Under the pieces are notes generated by a model that ran no database searches, had not been told where the DNA came from, and saw only the letters and a program-made list of their open reading frames with translations. DNA of 64,000 bases from Treponema sp. Marseille-Q3903 (GTDB lineage Bacteria > Spirochaetota > Spirochaetia > Treponematales > Treponemataceae). The translations under genes and the position numbers were made by a program. Shown in pieces: positions 6,981 to 37,048 of the stretch. Within the stretch, counting starts at the first letter, position 1. Each line of letters begins with the position of its first letter. The stretch lies in NCBI RefSeq assembly GCF_014334335.1, contig NZ_JACSEU010000001.1, forward strand, positions 124,001 through 188,000. The letters are read 5' to 3'.

Positions 6981-7167
6981 ATATTTTCATTTCCTTTCAT
7001 TCCACTCTTTCGCAGCTCAAGGGCTTTTTATTCAAGCTTCCCTTTCCTCTGCTCGCAGACTGAAAAGTCCTTCTTCTGATAACGCAAGTCTTTCCATGCG
7101 TCATCTTCCGTTCCTTCCTTAGCAATTTCAAAAAACAATAAAATCCAGCAATGAAGCTTTCATTAGA

Positions 7168-7241
7168 TGGGACAGACAAGAGTTGAACTTGTGACCCCCG
7201 CCTTATCAGAGCGGTGCTCTAACCAACTGAGCTACTGTCCC
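7168..7241 (-). tRNA. tRNA-Ile (GAT)
   Basis: The minus strand gives GGGACAG...CTGTCCC acceptor arms, D-arm AGCTCAGTTGG, anticodon loop CTGATAA with anticodon GAT, and T-arm GTTCAAC. The discriminator base is A at 7168. CCA is not encoded. It lies between tRNA-Ala and 23S in the rRNA spacer. Confidence 0.95.
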
Positions 7242-7251
7242 TTAAATAATA

Positions 7252-7326
7252 TGGAGAATAAGGGATTTGAACCCTTGACCCTCGGCTTGCAAAGCCGATG
7301 CTCTAGCCAACTGAGCTAATTCCCCA
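7252..7326 (-). tRNA. tRNA-Ala (TGC)
   Basis: The minus strand reads GGGGAATTAGCTCAGTTGGC and folds with the anticodon loop TTTGCAA (anticodon TGC). The acceptor has G3 paired with U70, the alanine identity element. The discriminator is A at 7252, with no encoded CCA. It is the first spacer tRNA after 16S. Confidence 0.95.
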
Positions 7327-32429: not shown

Positions 32430-33635
32430 ATGGATAAATTTTTTGAAGAAAATCGCAGAGAAATAATAGAGCTGGAAAAGATGCTGACATCTCACATAGC
32501 AATCGCTCCAGAAGGTGGCGGAGACGGAGAGACGGAAAAATGCAACGCTCTGGAAGCATGGCTCAAATCAAAAGGGTTTACAAATATAGAACGATATGAA
32601 GCTCCTGACAGCCGAGTCAGTTCAGGCAGTCGCCCTTCTCTCGTCGTTACAATTCCGGGAAAAGACGATTCAAGCAGAATCTGGGTGATGGCTCACTTAG
32701 ACGTTGTCCCAACAGGCGATCTAAAATTATGGGATTCTGATCCTTGGACAGTCGTTGAAAAAGATGGAAAATTGTACGGGCGCGGCGTTGAAGACGATCA
32801 GCAAGGATTGTGCAGCGCAGCGTTTGCAGGTCTTTATTATATTAAAAACGGACTTACACCTGCTCACACAGTTAAACTCCTTTTTGTAGCAGATGAAGAA
32901 AACGGAAGCCGATACGGAATCCTCTGGCTAATAAAAAACCAAAATCTTTTTACTAAAAAAGACTTGATTTTGATTCCTGACGGAGGCGATCCGGAAGGAA
33001 AAACAATCGAAATCGCTGAAAAAAATATACTGTGGCTGGCAGTTCATGTACAAGGCAAACAGACTCACGGAAGCCGTCCAGATAGCGGAGCAAATGCGTG
33101 CCTAGCAGCGTGCGATCTTAGTTTGCGTTTGCACAACCTAGAAAAAATATTCAATAAAAAAGATGAACTGTTTGAACCTGCATATTCTACATTCCAGCCG
33201 ACAAAGCGTTCAAAAAATGTTGACAGCATAAATATAATTCCGGGCGAAGACACATTCTGCATGGACTGTCGTATTTTGCCATGTTATCACCTCACAGACG
33301 TTCTCGTAGAAGTAGACAAATGCTGCCGTGCAGTTGAGCAAGAATACGGAGTAAAAGTTGAATACACAACTCCGCAAAAATCAGAATCACCGGCAACCCC
33401 GGTAACTGCCCCTGTAGCACAAAAACTAGCCGCCGCAATCAAAAAAGTTCACAACATAGATGCAAAGTTCATAGGAATTGGCGGTGGAACAGTTGGAGCT
33501 GAGCTCCGCAGAGAAGGAATTGATGCCGTTGTTTGGAGTACGCTCGATGACCAGGCTCATCAACCTAACGAATATTGTATCGTAGATAATCTCATAAAAG
33601 ACGCAAAAACTCTTATAGAGCTGTTCAGAGAATAG
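32430..33635 (+). CDS. M20-family metallopeptidase/deacylase
   Basis: A 401-residue protein. It has the M20 zinc-site motifs WVMAHLDVVPTGD (His/Asp), LYGRGVEDDQQG (bridging Asp) and LLFVADEENGS (Glu-Glu), followed by a dimerisation domain. These enzymes cleave dipeptides or N-acyl amino acids in the cytoplasm. I start at ATG 32430, which has AAAGGA six bases upstream. A longer frame reaching 32358 would overlap mraY. The closest groups are Sapep/ArgE/DapE-like; the exact substrate is unknown. Confidence 0.9.
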   Translation: MDKFFEENRREIIELEKMLTSHIAIAPEGGGDGETEKCNALEAWLKSKGFTNIERYEAPDSRVSSGSRPSLVVTIPGKDDSSRIWVMAHLDVVPTGDLKLWDSDPWTVVEKDGKLYGRGVEDDQQGLCSAAFAGLYYIKNGLTPAHTVKLLFVADEENGSRYGILWLIKNQNLFTKKDLILIPDGGDPEGKTIEIAEKNILWLAVHVQGKQTHGSRPDSGANACLAACDLSLRLHNLEKIFNKKDELFEPAYSTFQPTKRSKNVDSINIIPGEDTFCMDCRILPCYHLTDVLVEVDKCCRAVEQEYGVKVEYTTPQKSESPATPVTAPVAQKLAAAIKKVHNIDAKFIGIGGGTVGAELRREGIDAVVWSTLDDQAHQPNEYCIVDNLIKDAKTLIELFRE

Positions 33636-33692
33636 ATTTTACACAGCGGTTTGATTTTTTATAACTTTATATAATTTTTTTTAATTTTCCTC

Positions 33693-33719
33693 TAAACTTT
33701 TTTTTCCATACCCCGAGAA
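33693..33719 (+). promoter_or_regulatory. Sigma-28 (FliA)-type promoter of flaB
   Basis: TAAACTTT (33693-33700), 11 bases, CCCGAGAA (33712-33719). This matches the flagellar consensus TAAAGTTT-N11-GCCGATAA at 13 of 16 positions with the correct spacer. It lies about 105 bases before flaB. Confidence 0.75.
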
Positions 33720-33731
33720 TGTAGTATAGGG

Positions 33732-33780
33732 TGGTGGAAACCCAAAAAGATAAACCACGTCGTGGTTTAAAAGCCCACCA
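33732..33780 (+). promoter_or_regulatory. Structured 5' leader of flaB mRNA
   Basis: TGGTGG (33732-33737) pairs with CCACCA (33775-33780), enclosing a hairpin AAACCAC/GTGGTTT (33752-33768). A loop contains GGA, the core of CsrA sites. The start-site ribosome-binding sequence AGGAG is at 33813-33817. Translational control is possible but not shown. Confidence 0.45.
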
Positions 33781-33824
33781 TGTGTTTTATCTTAATTACT
33801 AACCAAGCTTTATAGGAGATTATT

Positions 33825-34685
33825 ATGGTTATTAATCACAATATGAGCGCAATGTTCGCTCAGCGTTCCCAGGGACTTCAGGATCTTAACCAGCAGAAAT
33901 CAATGGAAAAACTTTCTTCTGGTATGAAAATCAATCGTGCCGGTGATGATGCATCAGGACTCGCAGTTTCAGAAAAAATGCGTTCCCAGATTCGCGGTTT
34001 GAACCAGGCATCTACAAACGCCCAGAATGGTATTTCATTTATTCAGACAACAGAAGGATATTTGCAGGAAACTACAGATATCGTACAGCGCATCCGTGAA
34101 TTGGCAATTCAGGCTTCAAACGGAATTTACTCTTCAGAAGACCGCATGCAGATTCAGGTTGAAGTTTCTTCTCTCATCGCAGAAGTTGATAGAATTGCTT
34201 CATCTGCTCAATTCAACGGAATGAACATGCTTACAGGTCGTTTTGCTCGTCCAACAGGCGAAAACGTTGTAACAGGCTCTATGTGGTTCCACATCGGTGC
34301 TAACATGGATCAGAGAACACAGGTTTACATTGGAACAATGTCAGCAACAGCACTCGGACTTCGCAATCTCGGAGACGAGTCAATTATGACTTTGGAAACT
34401 CCTGATGAAGCTAACCGTGCAATCGGAACTTTGGACGAAGCTTTGAAAAAGATCAACAAACAGCGTGCAGACTTGGGAGCTTATCAGAACCGCCTCGAAA
34501 AGACTGTAACAGGATTGGACGTAGGTGCTGAAAACTTACAGGCTTCTGAATCTCGCATCCGTGATACAGACATGGCTAAAGAAATGGTTAAATTCACAAG
34601 TTCTAACGTGCTCTCTCAAGCCGGCACCGCAATGCTCGCACAAGCTAACCAGAGTTCACAGAACGTACTTTCTTTGCTCCGCTAG
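33825..34685 (+). CDS. flaB: Flagellin FlaB (periplasmic flagellar filament core)
   Basis: A 286-residue spirochaetal flagellin. The N-terminal D0/D1 domain has [37 protein letters not shown] and [10 protein letters not shown]. The C-terminal D0 domain ends [10 protein letters not shown]. The variable middle is nearly absent, as in FlaB proteins of Treponema, which form the core of periplasmic filaments. There is no signal peptide, as expected for a type III export substrate. It is preceded by a sigma-28-type promoter and a structured leader. Its last 55 bases belong to a 152-bp tandem repeat that continues downstream. Confidence 0.96.
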
Positions 34686-35095
34686 GGAAAAAGTTAGTTG
34701 AATTAAAACAAACTGGCGAGCTATTGCGAAGTCAGTTTGCGCAAGCAAACTGAGTAAGCAGACGCTGTAAGCGTATGCGTCCAATGCTCGCACAAGCTAA
34801 CCAGAGTTCACAGAACGTACTTTCTTTGCTCCGCTAGGAAAAGCGTTAGTTGAATTAAAACAAACCGGCGAGCTATTGCGAAGTCAGTTTGCGCAAGCAA
34901 ACTGAGTAAGCAGACGCTGTAAGCGTATGCGTCCAATGCTCGCACAGGCTAACCAGAGTTCACAGAACGTACTTTCTTTGCTCCGCTAGGAAAAAAGTTA
35001 GTTGAATTAAAACAAACCGGCGAGCTATTGCGAAGTCAGTTTGCGCATGCAAACTGAGTAAGCAGACGCTGTAAGCGTATGCGTCCAATGCTCGC
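34631..35095 (+). repeat. Three tandem 152-bp units copying the flaB 3' end, plus a partial fourth
   Basis: Units run 34631-34782, 34783-34934 and 34935-35086, then break off in a fourth copy (from 35087). Each contains the last 17 flagellin codons with stop, a short A/T-rich link and a structured segment. The units are nearly identical; differences include AAACTGG/AAACCGG and GCAA/GCAT in a loop. The first unit's coding part is the true flaB end. In the others the reading frame [17 protein letters not shown] has no ribosome-binding site. Confidence 0.95.
34717..34790 (+). ncRNA. Predicted three-way-junction RNA fold in each 152-bp unit (copy 1 shown)
   Basis: CGAGC-T-ATTG (34717-34726) pairs with CAATGCTCG (34782-34790), nine pairs with one bulge. 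It encloses hairpin CAGTTTGC-GCAA-GCAAACTG (34733-34752, 8 bp with a GNRA-type loop) and hairpin GACGC...GCGTC (34761-34781). Copies recur at 152-base intervals. The closing arm of each copy lies in the next unit's flagellin codons. In copy 3 the loop changes to GCAT while the stem is kept. This is a base-pairing prediction made by eye, not a known RNA family. Confidence 0.45.
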
Positions 35096-35103
35096 GAAAA
35101 TTA

Positions 35104-35158
35104 AAACACGGTAGATGAAACTCCACAATTTTGGACGCTTCGTCGACCGTGTTTTTTT
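35104..35158 (+). terminator. Intrinsic terminator of the flaB transcript
   Basis: AAACACGGT (35104-35112) pairs with ACCGTGTTT (35146-35154), followed by a T-run to 35158. It follows the last repeat, so flaB transcripts should include all repeat units. Confidence 0.75.
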
Positions 35159-35322
35159 ATGCTCACAAAATTATGACGGTTCAAATGAACCCTTTTCTTT
35201 TATTTTGACGGCATTATGTTTCCTCGCTTGCCATGCCCATTACATACCAAAAAAAATTGACACCCATTAGCTTTCCTGTGTATAATTGCTACAAATTATT
35301 TCATTACTAAAGGAGAAAAAGT
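35159..35322. promoter_or_regulatory. Spacer with promoter of the first small lipoprotein gene
   Basis: A good promoter, TTGACA (35257-35262), 18 bases, TATAAT (35281-35286), precedes the lipoprotein start by about 36 bases. The remaining sequence shows no gene. With the flaB repeats it makes up the 637-base gap after flaB. Confidence 0.7.
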
Positions 35323-35778
35323 ATGAAAAAAATGAGTTTGGCAATGGTAATTCTTCTGGCATTAGGACTGGTATTTACATCTTGTAAACAACAGGATACA
35401 GATATGACACTATCTGACCTTGACAACACTGACTGGTTGCTTGGCACATGGGAAATGACGTCTACAGTAGATTACAATATCACAGGTGCTGATGCAGCTA
35501 CAGAAAAGGCGATAAAAGAGAATTTTATGGCTTCACCCACTACGTCTATGACAGTTACAAAAGTTAATGTTGGAATATTTGCCGGAGTGCTTAAAGGATA
35601 CGTTCAAATGGCTGGAAAAGAAGTGCCTGTTCCGGATGGAAAATCTACTATCAGCGTAAAAATAAACAAAGCTAAAACTAAGGTTTCCATATATACGGAC
35701 ACAGAAGTTTCAAAGACAATTGCAGATAAAAAAGTTAATGCAAAAATCTCAATAGCGGTTACTTACACAAAGAAGTAA
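35323..35778 (+). CDS. Small lipoprotein, paralogue 1
   Basis: A 151-residue lipoprotein with signal MKKMSLAMVILLALGLVF and lipobox FTSC (Cys20). The mature part starts with an acidic linker (DTDMTLSDLDNTDWLLGTW). It then shows alternating hydrophobic and polar stretches (TMTVTKVNVGIF; ISVKINKAKTKVSIYTDTE) that suggest a small beta-barrel or lipocalin-like fold with an early GTW motif. No enzyme motif is seen. A paralogue lies downstream with the same promoter-proximal sequence. Function unknown; probably exposed on the outer or inner membrane. Confidence 0.75.
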   Translation: MKKMSLAMVILLALGLVFTSCKQQDTDMTLSDLDNTDWLLGTWEMTSTVDYNITGADAATEKAIKENFMASPTTSMTVTKVNVGIFAGVLKGYVQMAGKEVPVPDGKSTISVKINKAKTKVSIYTDTEVSKTIADKKVNAKISIAVTYTKK

Positions 35779-35812
35779 CAATACCTTAGCAAAATAAAGC
35801 ATTTTATTTACA

Positions 35813-35865
35813 AAAAAAAGCTGCCCTAAAAGTTAGATAAACTTTATAAAGGGCAGTTTTTTTTT
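35813..35865 (+). terminator. Intrinsic terminator between the two lipoprotein genes
   Basis: CTGCCCT (35821-35827) pairs with AGGGCAG (35850-35856), extended by flanking A/T pairs, then eight or more T. Confidence 0.8.
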
Positions 35866-35944
35866 ATAAAAAAGACTTGCCCCCACACACACAACCTCGT
35901 GATATAATGTTGCTATATTATTTCATCACCAAAGGAGAAAAAGT

Positions 35945-36418
35945 ATGAAAAAAATGAGTTTGGCAATTGTAATGCTTTTGGCATTAGGATTGGCATTTAC
36001 ATCTTGTAAACAACCGGGTACACAAGATGCAGATTTGACAGCAGAGGATCTTAACGACACAAGCTGGATGATTGGCACATGGGAAGAAAAATCAGAGAAT
36101 GATTACAACATAAGCGGTATTTCGGATGTGTTAAAAAAAGAGGTTGAAAAAAGGGTGCCATCAGCTCCTGCCCCTACGGAACTAACAGTTACTAAAGATA
36201 ATGTTGACGAATTTGCTACAAAATTAAAAGGATATATCGCAATCGCAGGAAAACCGCAGCCCATCCCGGGTAAAACTGAGACATATACGATTAACATAAA
36301 GATAAACAAGGACAAAACAAAAATTTCTATATACAATGAGACAGAAACAAAAATGGATTTTATGGGAAACAAAGTTAGCGTAAAGATTACAAAAGCTACT
36401 ATTTATACAAAGAAATAA
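35945..36418 (+). CDS. Small lipoprotein, paralogue 2
   Basis: A 157-residue lipoprotein paralogous to its neighbour. It shares the signal sequence and FTSC lipobox, a Trp-containing DLNDTSWMIGTWEEKSE segment, LTVTKDNVDEFATKLKGYIA, and a C-terminal half rich in INIKINKDKTKISIYNETE. The two proteins align over their whole length with clear divergence in the middle. The region from 35917 to the start codon repeats the sequence before paralogue 1 almost exactly (ATTATTTCAT to AAAGGAGAAAAAGT). A weaker promoter has TATAAT at 35903-35908. Function unknown. Confidence 0.75.
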   Translation: MKKMSLAIVMLLALGLAFTSCKQPGTQDADLTAEDLNDTSWMIGTWEEKSENDYNISGISDVLKKEVEKRVPSAPAPTELTVTKDNVDEFATKLKGYIAIAGKPQPIPGKTETYTINIKINKDKTKISIYNETETKMDFMGNKVSVKITKATIYTKK

Positions 36419-36434
36419 CCCTCCCTTAAAAATA

Positions 36435-36462
36435 AAAAACGTCCCTTGTTCGGGACGTTTTT
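36435..36462. terminator. Intrinsic terminator after lipoprotein paralogue 2
   Basis: AAAAACGTCCC pairs with GGGACGTTTTT around a TTGTTC loop. A- and T-rich flanks allow action on both strands, and the STAS gene converges from the right. Confidence 0.8.
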
Positions 36463-36493
36463 CAAAACAAATCACAAATTAAAAACACCGCAA

Positions 36494-37048
36494 TTAACCA
36501 AGCACTACAGAACCGTCAGCTTTAATTGTAAGAATCGCTTTACAATTTGTGCAACGGAAACGCCCTGCATGAGCTGCTTGAAGGCTTCTTCCACAAGATG
36601 GACAAGGAAACAATTTTGGAAACACCGTTCCCATAGACTTGCCTCCGCCATTGCGCAAAAACTCGAGAGCTTCCTCTGTTGTCTCTTTAAGATTAAAAAA
36701 CTGAGAGAATCCCAAAATCTGAAAAACCTCTACAACTTTTTCTTGCACTTCAGAGAGCACAATATCTCCGCCTTTCACTTTTACCATCTTAAGAAGAATA
36801 GTAAATGAGCCGAGTCCTGTTGAAGACACGTAAGAAAGCCTCTTACAATCAAACAATAAATTGAAAAAGCCTGCTCCAATAACTTTTGTCATTTGCTTTT
36901 GGAAAAAAGATGAATTGTAAGTGTCAATATAGCCTTCCAAAATAATCATACAGCCATTTTGGACTCCTGGAATCTTACACAATGTAATTTTAAGAGAATC
37001 ATCTTTGTCGCTATCAAACCCTGAAACAATCGAATTATTTGATTCCAT
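36494..37048 (-). CDS. STAS-domain protein with C-terminal zinc ribbon
   Basis: A 184-residue protein. The N-terminal two-thirds is a STAS (anti-anti-sigma) domain, with MIILEGYIDTYNSSFFQKQM near residue 35, then LLFDCKRLSYVSSTGLGSF, where the Ser-Ser-Thr lies at the site phosphorylated in SpoIIAA-type antagonists. The C-terminus has two CxxC pairs (FPCPSCGRS, FRCTNCKAI) forming a zinc ribbon. That combination is unusual. I use the ATG at 37048, with GGAG seven bases upstream. No anti-sigma kinase gene is adjacent. It is likely a regulatory switch protein. Confidence 0.8.
   Translation of the reverse strand: MESNNSIVSGFDSDKDDSLKITLCKIPGVQNGCMIILEGYIDTYNSSFFQKQMTKVIGAGFFNLLFDCKRLSYVSSTGLGSFTILLKMVKVKGGDIVLSEVQEKVVEVFQILGFSQFFNLKETTEEALEFLRNGGGKSMGTVFPKLFPCPSCGRSLQAAHAGRFRCTNCKAILTIKADGSVVLG

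Follow-up and report, generated by a model that had tools for sequence, protein, structure and literature searches.

Tandem copies of a flagellin gene end point to a cassette-like DNA insertion at a fixed position in Treponema flagellin genes

We analyzed a stretch of 64,000 nucleotides from the genome of Treponema sp. Marseille-Q3903 (hereafter "the window"), in which the 3' end of the flagellin gene flaB is present in tandem copies. Our results point to a type of DNA insertion, not described so far, that targets a single position in a motility gene. We propose, with a probability of roughly 0.53, that a fixed core in the flagellin genes of gut Treponema serves as the insertion point for cassettes, each bringing a spare flagellin end, and that the unit found in the window was amplified later. 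The proposal builds on what can be read from the sequences, namely the layout of the units, its recurrence in other genomes, the foreign-looking gene end at one related locus (L006), the break of similarity near the core, and the agreement of an inverted arm with the in-frame core. If it is correct, a conserved protein-coding sequence would be a likely hot spot for insertions, where gene ends turn over and the protein remains unchanged.

The flaB array and its folded sites

Tandem Repeats Finder reports an array of period 152 with 3.1 copies, 97% matches and 0% indels, at 34630-35095 of the window (C1:158630-159095 on the host contig; Table 1). The array begins within the flaB coding sequence, and its three units of 152 bp (34630-35085) vary at 6 of 152 positions in all. 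A previous reading of the sequence alone had described three near-identical 152-bp units starting in flaB, each composed of the last 17 flagellin codons, the stop and a folding segment; this description holds for all three, and the array itself stands, with its start corrected from 34631 to 34630. The near-identity had been ascribed to recent amplification or homogenisation, and 97% likeness fits either. Every unit contains ATG CTC GCA ... CGC TAG, i.e. the last 17 flaB codons and the stop. The UTR that follows is about 30 nt long, and behind it come the arm GCGAGC[T]ATTGCG, the two hairpins and GTC, up to the next CAATGCTCGC. Unit 3 is followed by a 10-nt remnant CAATGCTCGC, then by a native-looking UTR and a terminator-like stem; the UTR of the window unit and the sequence 3' of the array both contain AATTAAAACA.

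Table 1. Features of the flaB array (positions in the window)
Feature	Position	Strand	Basis
flaB flagellin ORF, 286 aa; includes copy 1 of the repeated end as its last 17 codons	33825..34685	+	
Unit 1: in-frame flagellin end, stop, UTR, arm, two hairpins	34630..34781	+	Tandem Repeats Finder and copy alignment
Unit 2	34782..34933	+	Tandem Repeats Finder and copy alignment
Unit 3; coding copy with one synonymous change, CAA to CAG	34934..35085	+	
Core in flaB, GCAATGCTCGCA, inferred insertion point	34629..34640	+	Foreign-looking ends of relatives begin at its ATG
Inverted arm of unit 1, GCGAGC[T]ATTGCG	34716..34728	+	Further arms at 34868-34880 and 35020-35032
Folded site 1: arm, two hairpins, CAATGCTCGC of unit 2	34716..34791	+	RNA and DNA fold
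Folded site 2	34868..34943	+	RNA fold
Folded site 3, closed by the remnant core	35020..35095	+	DNA fold
Remnant CAATGCTCGC, read as leftover of the displaced native end	35086..35095	+	Sequence reading; inference from L006 and L007
Terminator-like stem with T run, 3' of the array	35103..35156	+	Inverted repeat I10 and sequence reading

An assembly artefact is argued against by the differences between the copies and by other assemblies that show this architecture too. By flaB similarity, the host probably belongs to the gut Treponema: among named genomes, the best matches come mainly from rumen and gut members of the genus. A search of the host genome revealed no near copy elsewhere; the three copies all lie in the array, with one additional 14-nt match, which rules out a dispersed repeat of the REP or MITE type. 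Two small lipoprotein-like genes follow directly 3' of the array (window 35295-36418); they are tandem paralogues whose upstream regions are alike (106 nt at 92%). An imperfect 84-bp direct repeat with 71% identity is present at 7157-7324.

The arm and the beginning of the next unit form the ends of a predicted fold, in which a closing stem, GCGAGC[T]ATTG against CAATGCTCGC, encloses the two hairpins. This supports the suggestion of the sequence-only reading that the fold of one unit is closed by the neighboring copy: for site 1 the z-score is -4.0 as RNA and -5.9 as single-stranded DNA, and for site 3 it is -6.2 as single-stranded DNA. Among related loci described below, the fold of L007 is weaker (z -2.8), its closing stem being only partly formed in the stretch that was folded, and that of L124 is no better than chance (z -1.2). 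The terminator had been placed after the units, and a stem with a T run is indeed found there by eye and as inverted repeat I10; a consensus scan omits this stem from its list, and reports no terminator-like site inside the array on either strand.

Related loci in other Treponema genomes

The same layout (in-frame end, inverted core copy, hairpins and a second end) recurs at 16 flagellin loci, distributed over 14 genomes of gut Treponema; the genomes analyzed are mostly metagenome-assembled. Several of the loci were picked for their resemblance to the repeat, and two of the 16 (L024/L076 and L091) look like remnants. The sequence-only reading had proposed to look for copies at other fla genes; no near copy was found at those of the same genome. 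Its idea of gene conversion with other flagellin genes is right in linking the units to an exchange of flagellin ends.

When 196 genomes of the genus were searched at the DNA level, two relatives were retrieved, L006 (G092) and L007 (G148), which carry one extra copy each at the same locus, where flaB is followed by a convergent STAS-like gene. Their arms read GCCAGC[A]ATTGCG and GCCAGC[C]ATTGCG, the bracketed base taking the place of the extra T of the window, and a pattern requiring two direct cores matched only the window, L006 and L007 among 200 genomes. L052 (G029) lies in a different flagellin gene and has a spacing of 106 and one hairpin; in L124 the spacing is 82. The displaced junction has C directly before CAATG in the window, L006, L007 and L052, and C directly before ATG in L124. 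A larger type, comprising L039 (G029), L040 (G055), L155 (G079), L087, L075, L081, L082 (Treponema sp. JC4), L083 and L088, consists, as judged by eye, of an in-frame end with its own terminator, the inverted core, hairpins, and a displaced end that is incomplete or damaged; the hairpin block of L039 shows 80% identity to G055 over query positions 169-631. Tandem or repeated units are present, besides the window, in L039, L087 and L155, which suggests that such arrays arise more than once.

Among 92 flagellin ends collected by similarity of the flaB protein (L069-L148), each with at least 150 nt of downstream sequence, eight carry the element, L091 counted, in addition to the remnant L076. Two patterns that combine a sense and an inverted core on one strand matched 3/196 genomes each, six different genomes together, and the reversed-pattern control matched 0/196.

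The inverted arm tracks the in-frame codons of its own locus. For 12 of the 16 loci, the arm agrees with the in-frame core at 53 of 60 variable positions; when the cores were shuffled among these loci, the mean agreement was 36.7 and the maximum 49, and none of 100000 shuffles reached 53, with the arms aligned by hand, bulge bases removed, and the relatedness of the loci ignored by the statistic. In the window, the arm extends into CG, pairing with the in-frame CGCAATG and not with the displaced TCCAATG. Such a dependence on the in-frame core would be explained if the cassette passed through a circular form, because the arm and the hairpins would then fold with the cassette's own core into a single site, as in integron cassettes.

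Origin of the in-frame end

The flaB body of L006 (807 nt) is 94.5% identical to that of L029, evenly along its length (0.95, 0.95, 0.94 and 0.94 by 200 nt), and 93–95% identical to the element-free orthologues L029, L031 and L018. The displaced end of L006 is 94% identical to the ends of these three, the in-frame end only 74%, and mismatches to the L029 end number 3/54 for the displaced and 14/54 for the in-frame end (Fisher p 0.007). Since body and displaced end match the orthologues at about 94%, the in-frame end of L006 looks like a newcomer from another flagellin gene that has displaced the native end. With L009 (body 94.3%), whose own end also breaks from L029, the values are 0.78 for the displaced and 0.76 for the in-frame end, and with L011 they are 0.74 and 0.78, respectively. 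L007 compared with L033 points in the same direction less strongly (displaced 0.85 with 8 mismatches, in-frame 0.72 with 15, p 0.16) and is suggestive only; comparisons for L052 and L124 favor neither end. In 71 comparisons without listed elements, the divergence of the end relative to the body has a mean of 0.04, a 95th percentile of 0.19 and a maximum of 0.21, so the difference at L006 (about 0.2) is extreme, not unique. As judged from these alignments, the signal of a foreign end is clear at L006 alone, and the native end of the window is gone.

A complete, diverged displaced copy is present in four loci, L006, L007, L052 and L124. There, displaced and in-frame ends differ at 25 of 68 codons, and these differences comprise 25 synonymous and 0 non-synonymous changes. 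Because all of them are synonymous, both ends look like working flagellin ends, and simple decay of the displaced copy would not be expected to look like that.

Divergence at this position is also seen in a wider comparison of flagellin genes. In 125 flaB pairs that are not on our element list (element status was checked for part of the genes), the window of the last 17 codons has a ratio of observed to expected identical codons, corrected for amino-acid composition, of 0.84, the lowest of all codon windows. It falls below z -2.5 in 18/125 pairs, whereas none of the 15 other windows does so in more than 6. For pairs with an element-bearing member the corresponding count is 44/187, with at most 11 in other windows, and for the C-terminal 136-codon stretches of 502 non-independent flagellin pairs, element-bearing ones included, it is 135 at the end and at most 8 elsewhere. 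The control with other genes comprises 18 pairs only; their end is low in 2/17. In the pairs L017/L073 and L009/L029 the alignment breaks at the ATG and recovers at or after the terminator, in L078/L079 it breaks a few codons past the ATG, and in L018/L029 the end is kept and the UTR differs. Eight disjoint outlier pairs were chosen for a divergent end, and in five of them one or both genes bear an element. Here, identity is seen in 5/8 and 4/8 pairs at codons -4 and -3, in 8/8 and 7/8 at codons -2 and -1, and in 1/8 each at codons +1 and +2. By alignment, then, some flaB pairs without an element also differ at the end, breaking near the same ATG.

Specificity for flagellin gene ends

A further copy, direct or inverted, of part of the last 75 nt of the gene within 700 nt (E <= 0.01) was found for 16/103 distinct flagellin ends, a count that includes loci picked by the repeat and a few weak ones, with the match of L136 taken as chance. 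The same test applied to other genes gave 30/711, most of them weak. Four of these 30 were read in detail and one was judged to be of the same kind: in L086 (2640-2820), the last 30 nt of a zinc-ribbon-like gene, including the stop, are repeated 83 nt downstream, with two hairpins between. Given this similar end duplication, flagellins are a favored, though perhaps not the sole, target. In 864 kb with 1432 ORFs (the window, its own genome and three relatives), the flaB end of the window was the only short gene-end duplication left by a filter that dropped repeats inside ORFs and low-complexity, short or weak ones; the scan also returned a 545-bp gene-size tandem (L170) and repeats away from gene ends (L174 and L193). 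A 9-mer search for direct-inverted-direct triples returned a mixture of the array and chance matches and was not used, and a further pattern search across the collected loci gave no matches.

We also considered phages as carriers and rejected this possibility: the flagellin-end pattern matched three stretches of viral contigs, each with a flagellin frame of 220–303 codons up to the match and two of them cut by the end of the stretch, and two hairpin patterns had no matches in viral contigs. L149, L150 and L151, IMG/VR contigs listed as viral, have flagellin genes near one end of the stretch. The plasmid search returned seven records, all of them flagellin genes of Bacillus, Pseudobutyrivibrio or Pseudarthrobacter. 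In the literature accessible to our search, which covered few subscription journals, we found no report of insertions or repeats at flagellin gene ends.

Proposed insertion and alternative explanations

According to our proposal, insertion would take place 17 codons before the gene end, at the core G^CAATGCTSGC or one of its codon variants. The cassette would carry a complete synonymous flagellin end, the stop, a UTR (with a terminator in the larger type), the inverted core and at least one hairpin. Upon insertion it would supply the in-frame end, so the gene would stay functional, and the native end would be moved downstream. Arm, hairpins and the next core would fold into one site, in which the core is presented as a duplex, and a recombinase might act on this folded single strand. 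Amplification of the unit in the window would have come later, with unequal crossing-over between direct copies as the simplest route, and most of the last native end would have been lost by deletion. More tentatively, and with considerable doubt, we suggest that the elements could represent a new integron-like system of mobile cassettes, with the flagellin 3' end as both attachment site and cargo and a putative recombinase that inserts folded single strands; each arrival would then swap the last 17 codons, leaving the protein unchanged, and arrays could grow as in the window. The elements encode no recombinase, and a phmmer search of the flanks of the collected loci with IntI and a few ORFs from recombinase loci found a tyrosine recombinase near a flagellin gene in L094 only. 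There, an integron-integrase-like gene (L094:329-1597) lies divergently beside a flagellin gene.

Replication template switching is a rather unlikely alternative that would dispense with a mobile element: the fork would fold back at the flagellin 3' end, copy the core in inverted orientation and return, giving direct-inverted-direct structures, from which tandem copies could later arise by unequal crossing-over. Such a process would account for an arm that copies the local in-frame core and reaches into the GC before the junction, and for AATTAAAACA shared by the unit UTR and the sequence after the array; moreover, flagellin genes are highly expressed. However, it leaves unexplained the foreign-looking in-frame end ahead of the native displaced end in L006, the break near the same ATG in element-free pairs, and the hairpin blocks common to different species (L039/G055, 80%). 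The element-free differences at the ends of L017/L073, L009/L029 and L078/L079 would instead suit homologous recombination or gene conversion between the flagellin genes of strains and species, which would replace the end and leave the hairpins as bystanders. We regard this as improbable: the upstream boundary clusters at the core, the inverted arm is left unexplained, and in the L006 draft genome (89% completeness), the last 33 nt of the in-frame end together with its UTR match other places over 26 nt at most.

Two further readings, both of which we hold to be very improbable, start from the fold. The sequence-only reading had named mRNA stabilisation and a 3'-derived small RNA among possible roles, and a structured RNA in the flaB mRNA, either a stabiliser or a 3'-derived small RNA maintained by selection, would agree with the stable fold and with the plus-strand scan, which lists no terminator-like site 5' of the array, so that the array in the window is probably within the flaB mRNA. 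However, at 11/16 loci the inverted arm lies, by eye, 3' of a terminator-like stem and therefore outside the expected flaB mRNA, and the closing stem covaries between species as a coding sequence and its inverted copy, which requires no selection on RNA. On these grounds we give little weight to a role as RNA, with the window as a possible exception. Neither do database comparisons uphold it: Rfam gives no match in 33500-36500 up to E 1, and its 14 matches up to E 1 on ten related loci are all below the gathering threshold. The hairpins also diverge among most class I loci, those of the window resembling L006 and those of L007, L052 and L124 being different. More generally, covariation beside coding repeats can mimic RNA structure. 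The least probable reading is single-strand transposition of the IS200/IS605 type, in which ATTG of the arm would guide cleavage at CAAT. These elements have the order guide, hairpin, cleavage site, which the order arm, hairpin, CAAT resembles; yet a search of the host genome (98.66% complete) at E <= 0.001 turned up no Y1 transposase, and we rejected an IS200/IS605 or REP/RAYT element on this basis. Y1 transposase was found in 6/9 element-bearing genomes.

Comparison with known systems

Hairpin arrays are known in Treponema as TD-2 RNA (Rfam RF03162), which the flaB array does not match up to E 1; its position differs as well, at the end of a gene instead of ahead of one. Another site of the host genome, L174:6110-6476 (G000:C1:1800001-1820000), contains three 121-bp tandem hairpin units right before a gene start, each including a likely ribosome-binding site, with a weak match to TD-2 RNA (E 0.072, 29 bits, gathering threshold 48.7). 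Palindromic elements derived from IS200/IS605, such as REP, are small hairpin elements with a short complementary foot. The flaB units share both features, but the element of the window is not dispersed and its own genome lacks a Y1 transposase. Some integrative elements insert in the 3' end of a gene, of the tRNA or icd type, and restore it. Like them, the flagellin element seems to supply the in-frame end, which differs by synonymous changes, and to displace the native one, a pattern that is clear in L006 only; unlike these, the flagellin elements span a repeat spacing of 82 to about 270 bp, too short for an integrase gene, and have an inverted core copy and tandem arrays.

Integrons occur in Treponema (PMC3607928), and the host of the flaB array itself has one, at L204:16758-17864 and in L204/L205 (G000:C1:665001-704800). 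Its intI (C1:681914-682861) scores 487 bits with TIGR02249 (cut-off 265) and is followed by many small frames, among them by eye one DinB-like and one PIN-domain protein, and by about ten repeated attC-like sites, also recognized by eye, that read CTAACACC...GTTAGA. A strict attC scan found none of these sites and gave one false match inside intI. TIGR02249 exceeds the cut-off in two of nine element-bearing drafts (G000 and G120), with fragments in G148 and G029 and low-scoring relatives in the other five.

The flaB sites are ruled out as integron attC, as they have no R'' AAC / R' GTT core and do not lie beside intI or attI; they are closed by GCGAGC/GCTCGC with the junction CAATG, and their cargo is a gene end only. 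The likeness lies in the tandem units, each closed by a folded site that ends in the first bases of the next unit, in the additional base that the arms of the window, L006 and L007 carry at a fixed place, and in the host itself having intI and attC-like sites. Natural tandem arrays with a defined junction offer material for the search for the enzyme, and if the model of the folded site is true, integron-like recombination would extend beyond attC.
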